Origin: Acinetobacter rongchengensis
Lineage (GTDB): Bacteria > Pseudomonadota > Gammaproteobacteria > Pseudomonadales > Moraxellaceae
Assembly: GCF_003611475.1 (NCBI RefSeq)
Contig: NZ_RAXT01000003.1
Location: 62,001-126,000, forward strand
Direction of reading: 5' to 3'
DNA: 64,000 nucleotides
Shown here: piece by piece, positions 3,009-56,902 of the stretch
How positions within the stretch are numbered: the stretch's first letter is position 1
Layout: each line of letters begins with the position of its first letter
Notes under the pieces: generated by a model
Database searches by the model: none
Seen by the model: the letters and a program-made list of their open reading frames with translations, nothing else
Told to the model about the DNA's origin: nothing
Program-made: the position numbers and the translations under genes

Positions 3009-4352
3009 CTAAAAAACACCCTGAGCGAGCATGGCATCGGCAACTTTGACAAAGCCTGCGATATTAGCTCCATTGACATAATTGACTGTGCCATCTTCCT
3101 GAATACCATACTTCATACAATTACGATGAATTTCTTTCATAATCGCATGTAAGCGTTCATCAACTTCTTCAAAAGTCCATCCTAAACGGATCGCATTTTG
3201 AGACATTTCAAGACCTGATGTGGCAACACCACCTGCATTAGATGCTTTGCCAGGCGCATAAAGAATCTTCGCTTCAACAAATTTTTCAACAGCATCCAGT
3301 GTAGAAGGCATGTTTGCCCCTTCAGCAACACAAATCGTACCATTTGCCAGTAGCATTTCTGCATCTTTCTCATTTAATTCATTTTGAGTAGCACAGGGTA
3401 ATGCGATATCACACTTGATTGACCAAGGACGTTGCCCTTCCAAATACTCAAAACCATGTTTAGATGCAAACTCAGAAATACGACCACGTTTTACATTCTT
3501 AAGTTCCATGACTTCTGCTAGCAACTCGTTGGTAAAGCCATCTTTTAGGTAAACCGTACCATTTGAGTCTGAAAGTGAAACCACTTTCGCCCCCAAATAC
3601 ATGGCTTTTTCTGCGGCAAATTGAGCTACATTGCCCGAACCTGAAATCGTCACAATTTTGTCTTTAAAGCTTTGACCACGTGTTTTTAGCATTTCCTCAG
3701 CAAAATATACCGTACCAAAACCCGTTGCTTCAGGGCGGGCTAAAGAGCCACCAAAAGATTGCCCCTTGCCTGTAAATACACAAGAAGTATCATTGCTTAA
3801 TTTCTTCATCATCCCTGCCATATAACCGACTTCACGGCCGCCTACACCAATATCACCTGCAGGAATATCCGTATTTGAGCCTAAATGACGATACAGTTCT
3901 ATGACCAAAGCTTGGCAGAAACGCATAATTTCACCTTCAGATTTCCCCTTAGGGTCAAAGTCTGAACCGCCTTTACCGCCCCCCATAGGTAAGGTCGTTA
4001 AAGCATTTTTAAAAGTCTGCTCAAAGCCTAAAAACTTTAAAATAGAAAGATTGACAGATGGGTGAAAACGCATTCCCCCTTTGAAAGGCCCAATTGCAGC
4101 ATTAAATTGAACACGGAACGCACGGTTTACTTGGGTTTGTCCTTGATCATCTACCCATGCAACGCGGAATTGAATTACACGTTCAGGCTCAACCAATCGC
4201 TCTAATAAACCATGTTGAGCATATTCAGGATGCTTTTCAATAAATGGCCACAAACTGGTCATTACTTCTTCAACAGCTTGTAAGAACTCAGGTTGATTAG
4301 GATCACGTGCTTTAACGTAATTTAAGAAGTCATTTAGGCTAGTATATTTCAA
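3009..4352 (-). CDS. gdhA: NADP-specific glutamate dehydrogenase
   Basis: GdhA carries out reductive amination of 2-oxoglutarate with ammonium, the low-affinity ammonium assimilation route. The 447-residue length is that of the hexameric bacterial enzyme. Visible motifs are the substrate-domain glycine loop PMGGGKGGSDFDPKGKS with the catalytic lysine, the upstream GPFKGGMRFHPSV segment, and the nucleotide-binding ISGSGNVAQFAAEKA in the C-terminal Rossmann domain. The ATG at 4352 gives the usual N-terminus (MKYTSLNDFLNYVKARDP). It is divergent from the RnfB-like gene across an AT-rich spacer. The link to the TCA genes at 13-28 kb is metabolic only. Confidence 0.96.
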   Translation of the reverse strand: MKYTSLNDFLNYVKARDPNQPEFLQAVEEVMTSLWPFIEKHPEYAQHGLLERLVEPERVIQFRVAWVDDQGQTQVNRAFRVQFNAAIGPFKGGMRFHPSVNLSILKFLGFEQTFKNALTTLPMGGGKGGSDFDPKGKSEGEIMRFCQALVIELYRHLGSNTDIPAGDIGVGGREVGYMAGMMKKLSNDTSCVFTGKGQSFGGSLARPEATGFGTVYFAEEMLKTRGQSFKDKIVTISGSGNVAQFAAEKAMYLGAKVVSLSDSNGTVYLKDGFTNELLAEVMELKNVKRGRISEFASKHGFEYLEGQRPWSIKCDIALPCATQNELNEKDAEMLLANGTICVAEGANMPSTLDAVEKFVEAKILYAPGKASNAGGVATSGLEMSQNAIRLGWTFEEVDERLHAIMKEIHRNCMKYGIQEDGTVNYVNGANIAGFVKVADAMLAQGVF

Positions 4353-53242: not shown

Positions 53243-54157
53243 TTAGAAATAACCTTCTTGCTTTTTCTTTTCCATCGAGCCAGCTTCATCATGGTCAATC
53301 ATACGACCTTGACGCTCTGAACTGGTAGCCAAAAGCATTTCTTGGATAATTTCAGGCAATGTTGTTGCAGTAGATTCCACCGCACCTGTCAATGGATAAC
53401 AGCCTAAAGTACGGAAACGTACCGATTTCATTTGCGGAACTTCGCCTTCTTTTAAACGCATACGCTCATCATCCACCATGATCAGTGTACCGCTACGCTC
53501 AACCACTGGACGCTCAGCAGCTAAATATAAAGGAACCAAAGGAATACTTTCTTGGTAAATATATTGCCAAATGTCTAATTCAGTCCAGTTTGACAATGGG
53601 AATACACGAATACTTTCACCTTTATTCACTTTACCATTATAAAGATTCCACAATTCTGGACGTTGGTTTTTAGGATCCCAACGGTGTTTAGAATCACGGA
53701 AAGAATAAACGCGCTCTTTAGCACGTGATTTTTCTTCATCACGACGTGCACCACCAAATGCAGCATCAAACTGATACTTGTCCAAAGCCTGTTTTAAACC
53801 TTGGGTTTTCATGATGTCGGTATATTTAGAACTACCATAATCGAATGGGTTTACACCTGCATCACGACCTTCTTTATTTTGATGCACAATCAGATCAAAA
53901 CCATGTTCTTTTGCCATGTTGTCACGGAATGTGATCATGTCTTTAAACTTCCAACCTGTGTCGACATGCAACAGTGGGAAAGGAAGTTTTGCAGGATAAA
54001 ATGCTTTTAAAGCAAGATGCAGCATCACTGCTGAGTCTTTCCCGATAGAGTAAAGCATCACTGGATTTTCAAATTCAGCGGCAACTTCACGGATAATATG
54101 AATACTCTCAGCTTCAAGCTGTTTTAGATGAGTAAGTCTTTCCTCAGATATAGACAT
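53243..54157 (-). CDS. cysD: Sulfate adenylyltransferase subunit 2
   Basis: CysD is the adenylyl-transferring subunit of ATP sulfurylase, of the PAPS-reductase-like ATP pyrophosphatase fold. The conserved start [23 protein letters not shown] and the phosphate loop [15 protein letters not shown] (SxGKDS form), plus [18 protein letters not shown], identify it. The ATG at 54157 gives 304 residues; one three codons earlier is possible. It heads the cysDN transcript and is divergent from a GNAT gene. Other cys genes are not in the window. Confidence 0.96.
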
Positions 54158-54297
54158 TGACAGCACCAGCTCACAAAAAAGTGTACTTATTACACATATT
54201 AAAATTTATATTCATTATAGTGATTTAACGAGAATTCTTTTGCTTGTTTTTTTATATTGATATATAAAAACATCATAAACAAAATTTAGAATTTGCA

Positions 54298-54741
54298 ATG
54301 AACACACAAATTTTCGCATTAGAAGACATTACTTTTGAACAATGGCTTCCACTTTGGCAAGCTTACTTAACTTTTTATAAAACACAATTGAGTGACGAGC
54401 AAATAAGATTATCTTGGAAGAGAATCACAAATCCTGAACAAACCGATATCTTTGGTTTTGCAATAAAAATTGATGAGAATGTGGTTGGATTTGTCCATCT
54501 AAATTCACATATAAGCACATGGACAAAGTTACCTTATTGTTATTTACAAGATTTATATGTTGATGAACAGTTTAGAAATCAAGGATTAGCACGAAAACTG
54601 ATTGAATATTGCTATGAATTTTGTACTGGTAAATTTGATCGAGTGTATTGGTTAACCCATGAAACAAATACCGCCGCACAATATCTTTATGACCGTATTG
54701 CAAGTAAAACAGGGTTTATTCATTACAAGAAAACCTTGTAA
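54298..54741 (+). CDS. GNAT-family N-acetyltransferase
   Basis: The 147-residue protein shows the GNAT fold. The strand VVGFVHLNSH is followed by LQDLYVDEQFRNQGLARKLIEYCYEF, where Q/RxxGxA binds acetyl-CoA, and the C-terminal TNTAAQYLYDRIASKTGFIHYKK. The N-terminal region (ITFEQWLPLWQAYLTFYK) is typical of small amino-group acetyltransferases. The acceptor is unknown. It is divergent from cysD and shows no operon partner. Confidence 0.85.
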   Translation: MNTQIFALEDITFEQWLPLWQAYLTFYKTQLSDEQIRLSWKRITNPEQTDIFGFAIKIDENVVGFVHLNSHISTWTKLPYCYLQDLYVDEQFRNQGLARKLIEYCYEFCTGKFDRVYWLTHETNTAAQYLYDRIASKTGFIHYKKTL

Positions 54742-54785
54742 TCCTTTATTGATATAGCGTTAAACAACATAAATAAATCATAGAC

Positions 54786-54814
54786 AAAAAAAAAGCTTAC
54801 TCTCTCAAGTAAGC
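54786..54814 (-). terminator. Orphan intrinsic terminator
   Basis: A 7-bp stem with nine U on the minus strand. The plus strand has no U-run after the stem, so it does not serve the GNAT gene upstream. Confidence 0.85.
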
Positions 54815-54885
54815 GATCAATCGCACATAAAGCACAAAGTGGAGGTCTTGTACTTAAAGTTGGAGTACCCTTCTTTATTCTAATT
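54786..54885 (-). ncRNA. Candidate small RNA of about 100 nt
   Basis: On the minus strand a -35-like TTAACT (54921-54916) and a -10-like TAGTAT (54897-54892) are 18 bases apart. About 100 bases later a stem GCTTACT / AGTAAGC (54814-54808 with 54801-54795) is followed by nine U (54794-54786), an excellent intrinsic terminator. No minus-strand gene lies between this and the next terminator at 55042. Inside the unit GTACT / AGTAC (54868-54864 with 54854-54850) forms a hairpin with a CCAACUUUA loop, and an unpaired GACCUCC segment is complementary to ribosome-binding sites. This is what a trans-acting small RNA looks like. It might belong to the C4-like sRNA group reported in Acinetobacter, but I cannot verify that. 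Confidence 0.5.
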
Positions 54886-55041
54886 AAAGTCATACTAAAG
54901 AAGTTGTTTAATCATAGTTAAAAAATTCATGAAAAAACATCCCTAGAATTGGGTATTTTTTTATAAAAAAATTGCATTAAAATAGTAAGTTTTATCTTTC
55001 AACTAAAACAAACTGCACATTTTAAAATTAATTTTTAACAA

Positions 55042-55074
55042 TAAAAAAAGACTTATTTTATTCAAAATAAGTCT
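55042..55074 (-). terminator. Intrinsic terminator of the Wzi-family gene
   Basis: AGACTTATTTT / AAAATAAGTCT (55049-55059 with 55064-55074) is an 11-bp perfect stem followed by seven U on the minus strand, about 150 bases after the stop of the Wzi-family gene. Confidence 0.85.
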
Positions 55075-55085
55075 ATAAAAGTTCA

Positions 55086-55217
55086 AAGCAAGTCTTGTAA
55101 AACAATTCAAGCTTTGAGGGTAGGAATAACTTCTTTAATTAAGGTTGATTAAAGAAGTCAATTCATCCTAAGCTTTGAATAGCATCGTGTATATACCTAC
55201 AATTAGGTATTTTTTTA
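55086..55217 (+). ncRNA. Possible plus-strand small RNA (weak)
   Basis: A TATAAA at 55074-55079 could be a -10 box (the -35 is poor). Downstream are an outer stem TCAAAGC / GCTTTGA (55083-55089 with 55111-55117), a 10-bp hairpin CTTCTTTAAT / ATTAAAGAAG (55130-55139 with 55148-55157) and a terminator TACCTA / TAGGTA (55194-55199 with 55204-55209) with seven T. It ends a few bases before the stop codon of the convergent Wzi-family gene. The hairpins could equally belong to the 3-prime UTR of that gene on the other strand. Confidence 0.25.
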
Positions 55218-55222
55218 CTTAC

Positions 55223-56680
55223 TTAATAACCAATTAATGATTTATCTAAAGGGATTTCAACACCCACAGAAACACCACCATCATTTCCATGTACATCGGA
55301 ATCACTCACCCAACCATTAATTTTCAAAGGAAGTGTTGGCTTGATATAATGCGTCCAAGTCACATCAAGTGCTTTAATTTTGTCATTTTCAGGAAATGCT
55401 AAATTAATTTGATCCGCACCAAATTGGCTTGAAGATTGGTTTACTTTGGCATACATCATACGACCTGATAAACGGTTCATTAAGTCAAAGCGAATATCTC
55501 CACCGACTGAAACCATTTCACCATCCCCCCCGATTGCATGTCCTAGTGGAAAGCCATGTTGGTAGTATCCATCTTGATAAATATAATGATTATATGAAAC
55601 ACCTTTTACATCACCATTGGTCGTTGTATCTGCCCATTCTGCATAAAGTTGGTACGGTAAATTTTTAAAACTTGAAGAATAATCTACACCAGCCAAATAC
55701 ATTTTTTTCGATGGTAATAATCCTGCTTCATCCTCACCGACATATTGCCCATAAAAACTAACAGGGATATTTAGTAGTTGCTGAAGATTTAATCGTGCAT
55801 CAAAGCCAGCGATTTGATTTGATTTATCTAAATCACCATTTTCAAAATTATCATTACCTTTAATCGCATTCCACAGTGAATCTAAACTCTCAGAGCGGCC
55901 TTCTCCCCCCCACTGTAAGACCCGAGATGCGCCCAACTCAAGATATTCTAAAGGTTGGGCTGTTAAACGGAAACCTAATAATTTTGTATCAGGCACGGCT
56001 GTATAATCATCCAACTGACCACCAAAAGCTTGATATTGCCAAGGGCCAATCCAAGATAACCACGGTGTTTCAAATGCTTTTTGCTCAGCACGTTGTACAG
56101 TGAATCCATAGACAGGGCGACTCGCATCACCACGGATTAAACTGCCATCATGTCCTGGCCCCCAATAGGTAGGGATTTGACCTGCGATCACCCATTGATT
56201 CCAAAGCTTACCCGCAATGTATGAACCCTCAACATTGACATCATGACCATTGTCAATTAATGGGTCTTTTTCACCATTTACACGAAGCTTAGCGTCCCAA
56301 TTCGTACCGCCTGCATTGAACTCTAAAGAACCCACATATTGCGCCTTGGTATCATCACCAAATGCTTGGGGAATATTTTTTTGATCAGACTCTGCAAATA
56401 AACCTAACTTTGCAGTTTGATTATCCGTTTTTAATGCATTTTGAATCGAATCTATGACTTTTTGTTGTGTGTTATTAGCAACTTTTGCTTGAGATAAAGC
56501 ACGTTGAATTTCATCACCACTCATTGGCCAAGTCGATGTGCTGATTTGAATCACACCTTGCTGATTTAACCAATTTAAATCTGTACGAATGTCTTCATTA
56601 TTCAGCACAATACCTTGCGCAAAAACAGGAAGAGACATTCCCAATAATACAGCGGCGTAAAGTGATTTTCTTAAATACAT
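55223..56680 (-). CDS. Capsule assembly Wzi-family outer-membrane protein
   Basis: The product of 485 residues has signal peptide MYLRKSLYAAVLLGMSLPVFA; an in-frame TTG five codons upstream is less likely. After a helical N-terminal segment (RTDLNWLNQQGVIQISTSTWPMSGDEIQRAL) comes a long barrel region with the family pattern (QWVIAGQIPTYWGPGHDGSLIRGDASRPVYGFTVQRAE). Wzi is an outer-membrane barrel that helps attach capsule to the surface in E. coli. No capsule genes are adjacent, so a porin-like role is also possible. Monocistronic, with a terminator 150 bases behind. Confidence 0.82.
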   Translation of the reverse strand: MYLRKSLYAAVLLGMSLPVFAQGIVLNNEDIRTDLNWLNQQGVIQISTSTWPMSGDEIQRALSQAKVANNTQQKVIDSIQNALKTDNQTAKLGLFAESDQKNIPQAFGDDTKAQYVGSLEFNAGGTNWDAKLRVNGEKDPLIDNGHDVNVEGSYIAGKLWNQWVIAGQIPTYWGPGHDGSLIRGDASRPVYGFTVQRAEQKAFETPWLSWIGPWQYQAFGGQLDDYTAVPDTKLLGFRLTAQPLEYLELGASRVLQWGGEGRSESLDSLWNAIKGNDNFENGDLDKSNQIAGFDARLNLQQLLNIPVSFYGQYVGEDEAGLLPSKKMYLAGVDYSSSFKNLPYQLYAEWADTTTNGDVKGVSYNHYIYQDGYYQHGFPLGHAIGGDGEMVSVGGDIRFDLMNRLSGRMMYAKVNQSSSQFGADQINLAFPENDKIKALDVTWTHYIKPTLPLKINGWVSDSDVHGNDGGVSVGVEIPLDKSLIGY

Positions 56681-56902
56681 GCACTTATTTCTCAAATTTA
56701 ATTAACCGTGACACATTAATTTCTTTACACACATTTTGCAATGAAGAAATTGTGTTCTTATTTCCTTCATCAAGACTTTGAATGACGAAAATCAGCCTCT
56801 TTTTATTTTGAATGTTTAAAGACGAAAGCCGTTAAGCTAAAGAATGAAAATGACTAGAGGAAAACTGTATTTATGAATAACTACACACTAAATACAAGCA
56901 AT

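Follow-up and report, generated by a model that had tools for sequence, protein, structure and literature searches.

The minus strand downstream of the capsule assembly gene wzi in Acinetobacter rongchengensis carries two tandem units, A and B (54786-55209 of the 64,000-nt stretch analysed, hereafter the window), and unit B is very probably a genuine small-RNA gene, judging from comparison with related sequences. The likely explanation for the locus is that tandem copies of a small RNA are activated by a NarL/FixJ-type response regulator, that RNA A, from the older copy, blocks filC of a Fap-like fibre system and that RNA B has been retargeted. Sequence comparison shows the family, its structure, the operator with its spacing and the complementarity between linker and filC; transcription, regulator binding, activation as opposed to repression, translational repression and the target of B are inferred.

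Two tandem small-RNA candidates downstream of wzi

Unit B (54786..54904, minus strand, 119 nt), the candidate of the first-pass annotation, comprises hairpin 1, a diverged linker, hairpin 2 and a terminator, and is recognized by our covariance model R1. Its sister copy, unit A (55043..55158, minus strand, 116 nt), is matched by the same model and is kept in genomes G064 and G174. Upstream of both lies wzi, encoding a capsule assembly protein of the Wzi family (55223..56695, minus strand; PF14052, E 7.5e-101), and on the other side is a convergent GNAT acetyltransferase gene (54298..54741, plus strand; PF00583). The minus strand between these two genes had been described as empty, and we likewise found no convincing gene there. 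The intrinsic terminator with nine U reported for the candidate (54786..54814, minus strand) was confirmed by a terminator scan, with a stem of eight pairs at 54814-54795 followed by nine T. It was the best of four terminator-like sites on both strands of 54000-55800, where 0.7 were expected. The scan demands at least three G-C pairs, and the terminator of unit A (55043..55074, minus strand), an A+T-rich hairpin and T run seen in the predicted fold, is hence unlisted.

Other details of the first description had to be revised. The proposed -35/-10 pair with 18-bp spacing is best fitted by TTAACT-18-TAGTAT at 54921-54892, which has 8 of 12 matches and is equalled by other pairs; the promoter scan lists none there on the minus strand, and the conserved promoter lies elsewhere. 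The RNA start, placed at about 54885, is most likely at about 54904, as indicated by a palindrome at 54955-54939 and a -10 box, TATGAT, at 54916-54911. The GUACU/AGUAC hairpin can be drawn, yet it is missing from the predicted folds and is broken by a 2-nt deletion in the closest relative, G064. The segment GACCUCC, read as single-stranded, is present, and the full-unit fold places it mostly within the apical loop of hairpin 2, ACCUCCAC, which is identical in G064. Since the folding energy of the unit B stretch is ordinary (z -1.19), the case was decided by comparison.

A shared three-hairpin architecture

The units have a common architecture, in which hairpin 1 is followed by a linker (UAUUCCUAC or AAUUCCUACC in most units), hairpin 2 and, last, the terminator hairpin. 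The 5' end of the RNA, (A/G)CUUCUUUA or a variant, forms hairpin 1, whose helix is paired in 131 of 134 cells across 15 units and whose loop contains GACC in 11 of them. In unit B this helix (CUUCUUUA...UAAAGAAG; 54870..54903, minus strand) is recovered by folding and belongs to those kept across the 15 units. The linker is unpaired and hairpin 2 is variable in sequence; in unit B the core of hairpin 2 (54830..54855, minus strand) was delimited from the fold, unpaired probabilities and comparison with G064. In the predicted fold, three hairpins leave a C-rich linker exposed.

We built R1 from seven units of other species, leaving out those of the window. In 137 kb, it recovered unit A with 42.8 bits (E 4.6e-6) and unit B with 34.6 bits (E 2e-4), unrelated matches reaching up to 26.6 bits. 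R1 also scored up to 49.9 bits on the opposite strand of units from other species, more than it gave our own A and B, because the hairpins are nearly symmetric; the strand was therefore assigned by the T run, the operator and the -10 box. With stricter filters, the search of 175 genomes reported 11, of which ten contain true units and the other, G140, was judged a false hit; both G064 and our own unit A were missed. Two hits were rejected because they look like the end of a gene followed by a terminator: G140:C1:116686, which contains the word GTTATTCCTACC and scores 34.6 bits, equal to unit B, and G000:C185:11063 in the own genome (33.6 bits). As the score of unit B is level with hits judged false genome-wide, the argument for this unit depends in part on its promoter and position.

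In a structure-fitted alignment of the 15 units, 95.4% of cells were paired, and 23 of 33 pairs showed the compensatory pattern of changes on both sides (53 cells). Among 500 shuffles of the alignment, the highest values were 85.9% paired cells, 14 pairs and 20 cells; the shuffles do not preserve relatedness, and an alignment fitted to the model structure leans towards it. When all units were aligned with MAFFT, RNAalifold did not recover hairpin 2. The Rfam 15 search gave no window match at the gathering score, and relaxing it to E 10 brought no convincing match in the region; sub-threshold PyrR matches on both units, which we rejected, probably reflect two hairpins plus a terminator. Comparison supports the original proposal of a small RNA well: the 15 units show covariation, and their promoter is conserved.

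Distribution of the family

Across 175 genomes, 15 units came to light, distributed over 11 Acinetobacter genomes and always located downstream of wzi. The own genome, G064, G087 and G119 carry two units each, and G024, G065, G088, G109, G112, G151 and G174 one each. DNA downstream of wzi was read or scanned at 130 places (30 loci and 100 stretches), fewer than the wzi matches, which include second copies and fragments, and 118 of these places have neither units nor an operator scoring above 9.9. The 42 genomes that lack a wzi match at E 1e-60 were covered by the DNA and model searches only.

In the DNA search of the 175 genomes, unit B with its upstream region (54786-54960) had full-length matches in just two, the own genome and, at 90% identity, G064. 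Unit A is better conserved, being 95% identical in G064 and 76% in G174, directly downstream of wzi; it also has partial matches elsewhere, of which those in G065, G088, G109 and G112 lie directly downstream of wzi. Searching one genome per species across 84,980 species with an exact core pattern, a strict query that some known units escape, returned five contigs, all from Acinetobacter, including A. silvestris, A. piscicola and A. sichuanensis. Within the own genome, the DNA search detected only chance-level pieces besides the locus itself. Leaving aside such pieces and the hits judged false, the units occur at the wzi locus only and not as many dispersed copies per genome. A mobile or phage origin was considered and dropped after blastn gave no match in plasmid or phage collections.

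Two loci show variations on this arrangement. In G119, the second unit is followed by a third operator-like palindrome and then by a decayed unit that keeps its terminator, forming an array of three (L062). In G031 (L045), an operator (19.2) at the same spacing downstream of wzi precedes a different RNA, a long hairpin GCTAAAATCGCTTCTT/AAGAAGCGATTTTAG without the UUCCUACC linker; the filC complement described below is also lost in this genome.

Operator and promoter of the units

In 14 of the 15 units a palindrome near TACCYRAWYNYAGGKAT begins 51 nt before the first conserved RNA base, and in G151, the remaining one, 50 nt before it, which places its centre at about -43 relative to the RNA start. 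Its sequence has diverged in G087_B and G119_B. A box of the form TANNAT ends 7 nt before the RNA in 13 of 15 units, the exceptions being GAGAAT (G109) and TAAACT (G087_A), and no -35 box is apparent in the units' promoters. In the window, the operator of unit B, TACCCAATTCTAGGGAT (54939..54955, minus strand), and its -10 element TATGAT (54911..54916, minus strand) have their counterparts before unit A in TACCTAATTGTAGGTAT (55193..55209, minus strand), located by pattern search and matrix scan, and TAGGAT (55165..55170, minus strand), located by comparison of the units. Both operators helped to build the scoring matrix, with which B scores 24.7, the top of the whole window, and A about 22.8-23.7; the next independent site scores 15.1.

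Weak sites carry little information. A loose operator pattern allowing two mismatches occurred at 44 places in the own genome, no more commonly than its reversed control (50), so that only strong sites are meaningful. When 30 of the 44 places were scored, the top three were B, A and the promoter of a regulator gene on contig C24 (about 18.3-18.5), followed by a site of 16.3. The exact word TACCCAATTCTAGGKAT occurs nine times in the 175 genomes, against none for the reversed pattern, and three of the nine are the units themselves.

The promoters bear on whether the units might mainly be elements of the wzi 3'-UTR, the terminator of A ending the wzi mRNA and the units being processed or read through rather than having a regulated promoter of their own. 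The wzi stop codon is only 13 nt from the operator of unit A, no minus-strand terminator is listed between the two by a scan that also misses A's own A+T-rich terminator, and every unit found sits downstream of wzi. However, the operator and -10 box stand at nearly fixed spacing in 15 units, including B, which lies behind the terminator of A, and most of the wzi places surveyed (118 of 130) have no units or strong operator. We consider the 3'-UTR reading improbable and favour promoters belonging to the units.

Strong operators also occur in other contexts. In G073, G113 and G164 (L191, L193 and L194), the exact operator is followed roughly 100-120 nt on by another conserved long hairpin, of the GGCCTTTTGATGATTT...AAATCATCAAAAGGCC type with GGGGAA in its loop, which in L191 lies beside a thiamine-phosphate synthase gene. 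The hairpin may represent a further small-RNA family that shares the regulator. In G082 (L023:1500-1590), an apparent operon for a fimbrial subunit and a chaperone, named by reading, is preceded by two operator-like sites of opposite orientation (21.2 and 19.6), and a site with one mismatch to the exact word lies upstream of it.

A NarL/FixJ-type response regulator as the probable activator

In G002, the exact word TACCCAATTCTAGGKAT lies in the promoter of a response-regulator gene whose product combines a receiver domain with a LuxR-type DNA-binding domain. Next to this gene, in divergent orientation, stands a chaperone-usher operon (SCPU, PapD_N and usher domains) with an operator of its own (24.4), and the locus (L325:1998-7632) contains a further site of 17.3 at 3706. 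We then scanned 300 nt upstream of the genes for the best 30 matches to the G002 regulator; G002 had been chosen for its operator, the other 29 had not. An operator of at least 12.0 was found upstream of 28 of these 30 NarL/FixJ-type regulator genes, and none above 6.2 upstream of 30 wzi genes (0 of 30). The site therefore looks autoregulatory for the NarL/FixJ-type family. The RNA promoters and the regulator's own promoter share a binding site, as genes of one NarL/FixJ-type regulon would, and the presence of the palindrome upstream of regulator genes suggests that such a regulator probably activates the small RNAs. The left half of the palindrome is similar to the NarL heptamer TACYYMT.

The own genome has two homologues. 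The gene on G000:C24 (47%) is followed by two histidine kinases, one of them with a sub-threshold 7TMR-DISM match, and has the site of about 18.3-18.5 located 63 nt before the start of its reading frame; that on G000:C68 (57%) has a weaker site of 14.5 in the opposite orientation. At E 1e-35, regulator homologues were found in 10 of 11 unit-bearing genomes and in 78 of 164 others (Fisher p 0.009, phylogeny ignored); G024 has a unit and no homologue at this threshold. Three genomes have another regulator homologue close to the wzi/unit locus, some 7.5-8.2 kb away from wzi (G088:C14, G109:C7 and G112:C35).

According to our model, the response regulator, in the own genome probably that of G000:C24, would bind the palindrome, whose centre lies near -43, and would activate transcription from a promoter with a -10 box and without a visible -35 box. 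Another regulator might bind the palindrome instead, or the regulator might repress the units: the palindrome was assigned to it by sequence comparison, and NarL-type proteins can repress. Against this, the same site recurs in the regulators' own promoters (28 of 30) and before the G002 chaperone-usher operon, and activation would agree with an operator at about -43 in a promoter that has a -10 box but lacks a visible -35 box. We hold both variants to be unlikely and retain activation by the NarL/FixJ-type regulator as the working model.

filC as the predicted target of unit A

The first-pass annotation had suggested a trans-acting RNA that pairs with ribosome-binding sites, and for sister unit A such complementarity was found, between UUAUUCCUACCC and the filC leader. 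We searched the 11 unit-bearing genomes for the linker complement near start codons (GGTAGGAATN{2,11}ATG). There was no overall excess, with 35 places against 33 for the reversed control; seven of the 35 fall on the strand opposite to the units themselves, and a single common gene accounts for ten more, one in each of ten genomes. In the own genome, this gene is filC (NCBIfam NF050079, 700.9 bits, cut-off 630), which stands in the order filA-filB-filC-filD and is weakly related to the Fap amyloid transporter FapF. The core complement in the filC leader is exact in 10 of the 11 genomes with units and has one mismatch in G174, while the exact core word occurs in only 2 of 59 unit-less genomes with a filC-like start (Fisher p 2e-9, phylogeny ignored). 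These 59 come from a hand list of filC-like starts whose homology was not checked individually, and relatedness among the unit-bearing species confounds the co-occurrence counts.

In the own genome, UUAUUCCUACCC of unit A pairs with GGGUAGGAAUAA of the filC leader over 12 nt that include the likely ribosome-binding site. The linker itself, UAUUCCUACCC (55118..55128, minus strand), is the predicted seed: its unpaired probability is 1.0 throughout, and positions 31-41 of RNA A are fully unpaired in the predicted ensemble. The linker-filC duplex was calculated at -19.5 kcal/mol, a value reached by none of 1000 shuffled linkers (mean -8.2, minimum -16.7). For the whole RNA A, 1 of 200 shuffles matched its pairing with the filC leader, and six other leaders were unremarkable. 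The unit A linker is both predicted to be unpaired and complementary to an mRNA leader, a combination for which no instance was found with unit B. By base-pairing with the filC ribosome-binding site, it would block translation of filC inside the fil operon. For fil itself, six of the seven regions examined have no upstream operator scoring at least 11, and that of G113, a genome without units, has one of 11.7.

The units could also be real RNAs that act elsewhere, for example through protein binding, the filC match then reflecting shared ancestry of the leaders. Two genomes with no unit at wzi, G004 and G029, carry the same complement in the filC leader, the genomes that do have units are related to one another, and the own linker would pair almost as well with the filC leaders of unit-less G060 and G085 (-18.8 and -18.5 kcal/mol). 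On the other hand, the match coincides with the exposed linker common to most units, linkers with UACCC (own_A, G064_A and G174) face filC leaders with GGG, and in G031, where the unit has diverged, the filC match is lost too (n = 1). Shared ancestry is a real possibility, albeit one we doubt, and filC remains our predicted target of unit A.

Divergence of unit B

In unit B the linker has changed to GGGUACUCCAAC, and in G064 to GGGUAUCAAC, which is 2 nt shorter. With this divergence, pairing with filC is lost (143 of 200 shuffles pair as well). The hairpin-2 loop ACCUCCAC (54839-54846, minus strand) is exposed in the predicted ensemble and identical in the own genome and G064, and the main stems are predicted in both, which makes this loop a candidate seed. 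The suggested action on ribosome-binding sites found no standout target here. Among seven leaders, unit B paired with none better than shuffles did, and the pattern GTGGAGGTN{2,12}ATG occurred at six places in the own genome and four in G064 (reversed control, seven and five), nothing convincing among them. Two of these places are common to both species and, by reading, seem to fall within the end of an upstream reading frame. If ACCUCCAC is the seed, the targets of unit B would be mRNAs with GUGGAGGU near their start.

The main alternative is that unit B is a decaying, non-functional duplicate. Its linker has diverged and is shortened by 2 nt in G064, its full-length match is confined to two close species, and the third copy in G119 looks decayed. 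Decay is nonetheless rather unlikely in our estimation, as the operator, -10 box, stems, loop ACCUCCAC and terminator of unit B are kept in both species. Most likely, unit B is a retargeted tandem copy, diverged and under the same control, which would expose its hairpin-2 loop and probably act on another mRNA. The A/B pair may serve as a natural example of how a seed diverges once a gene has been duplicated in tandem.

Comparison with known systems

On this account, a small-RNA family without an Rfam match gains a concrete putative regulator, a promoter code, an RNA structure and a predicted target, in a genus with few characterized small-RNA targets. More speculatively, an undescribed two-component fibre switch might operate in Acinetobacter, in which the regulator would activate chaperone-usher fimbriae in some species and, in this clade, a tandem set of small RNAs silencing the Fap-like Fil system at filC; duplication would leave copies such as B free to gain another seed and target while still controlled in the same way. 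An open-access literature search, supplementary small-RNA lists lying outside it, found, among the papers it listed, no description of this RNA family, of small-RNA control of fil or of the regulator, and the family might conceivably be identical with a listed A. baumannii small RNA.

The likeness to C4 antisense RNA (RF01695) raised at first did not bear out: the permissive Rfam search up to E 10 gave no C4 match, and the units have three separate hairpins ending in a terminator, not the C4 fold. They resemble C4 and the A. baumannii Group 1 small RNAs (Weiss et al., PMC5320573) in that these too are recurrent Acinetobacter RNAs proposed to cover ribosome-binding sites. Group 1 is reported to comprise 21 similar sequences, whereas our units occupy one locus and differ from Group 1 in architecture (PMC5320573). 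Aar of Acinetobacter, about 100 nt long and reported to repress mRNAs including carO by sequestering ribosome-binding sites (PMC11472050), is similar in size and in the mode predicted for unit A, and different in target. On the protein side, the G002 NarL/FixJ-type regulator adjoins a chaperone-usher operon, as in FimZ-type fimbrial regulation, and FimZ is among the NCBIfam matches of the C24 regulator. That regulator falls far under the FimZ cut-off (78.8 against 271 bits), however, and is accompanied by two histidine kinases. In circuit logic the units would resemble RprA (activated by RcsB), RsmY/RsmZ (activated by GacA) and Qrr, trans-acting small RNAs under response regulators, some of them tandem or redundant; RcsB and GacA are themselves NarL/FixJ-type regulators. 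Like these, the units would channel two-component output through small RNAs, but where RsmY and RsmZ present GGA decoys, our units present a C-rich, anti-Shine-Dalgarno linker.
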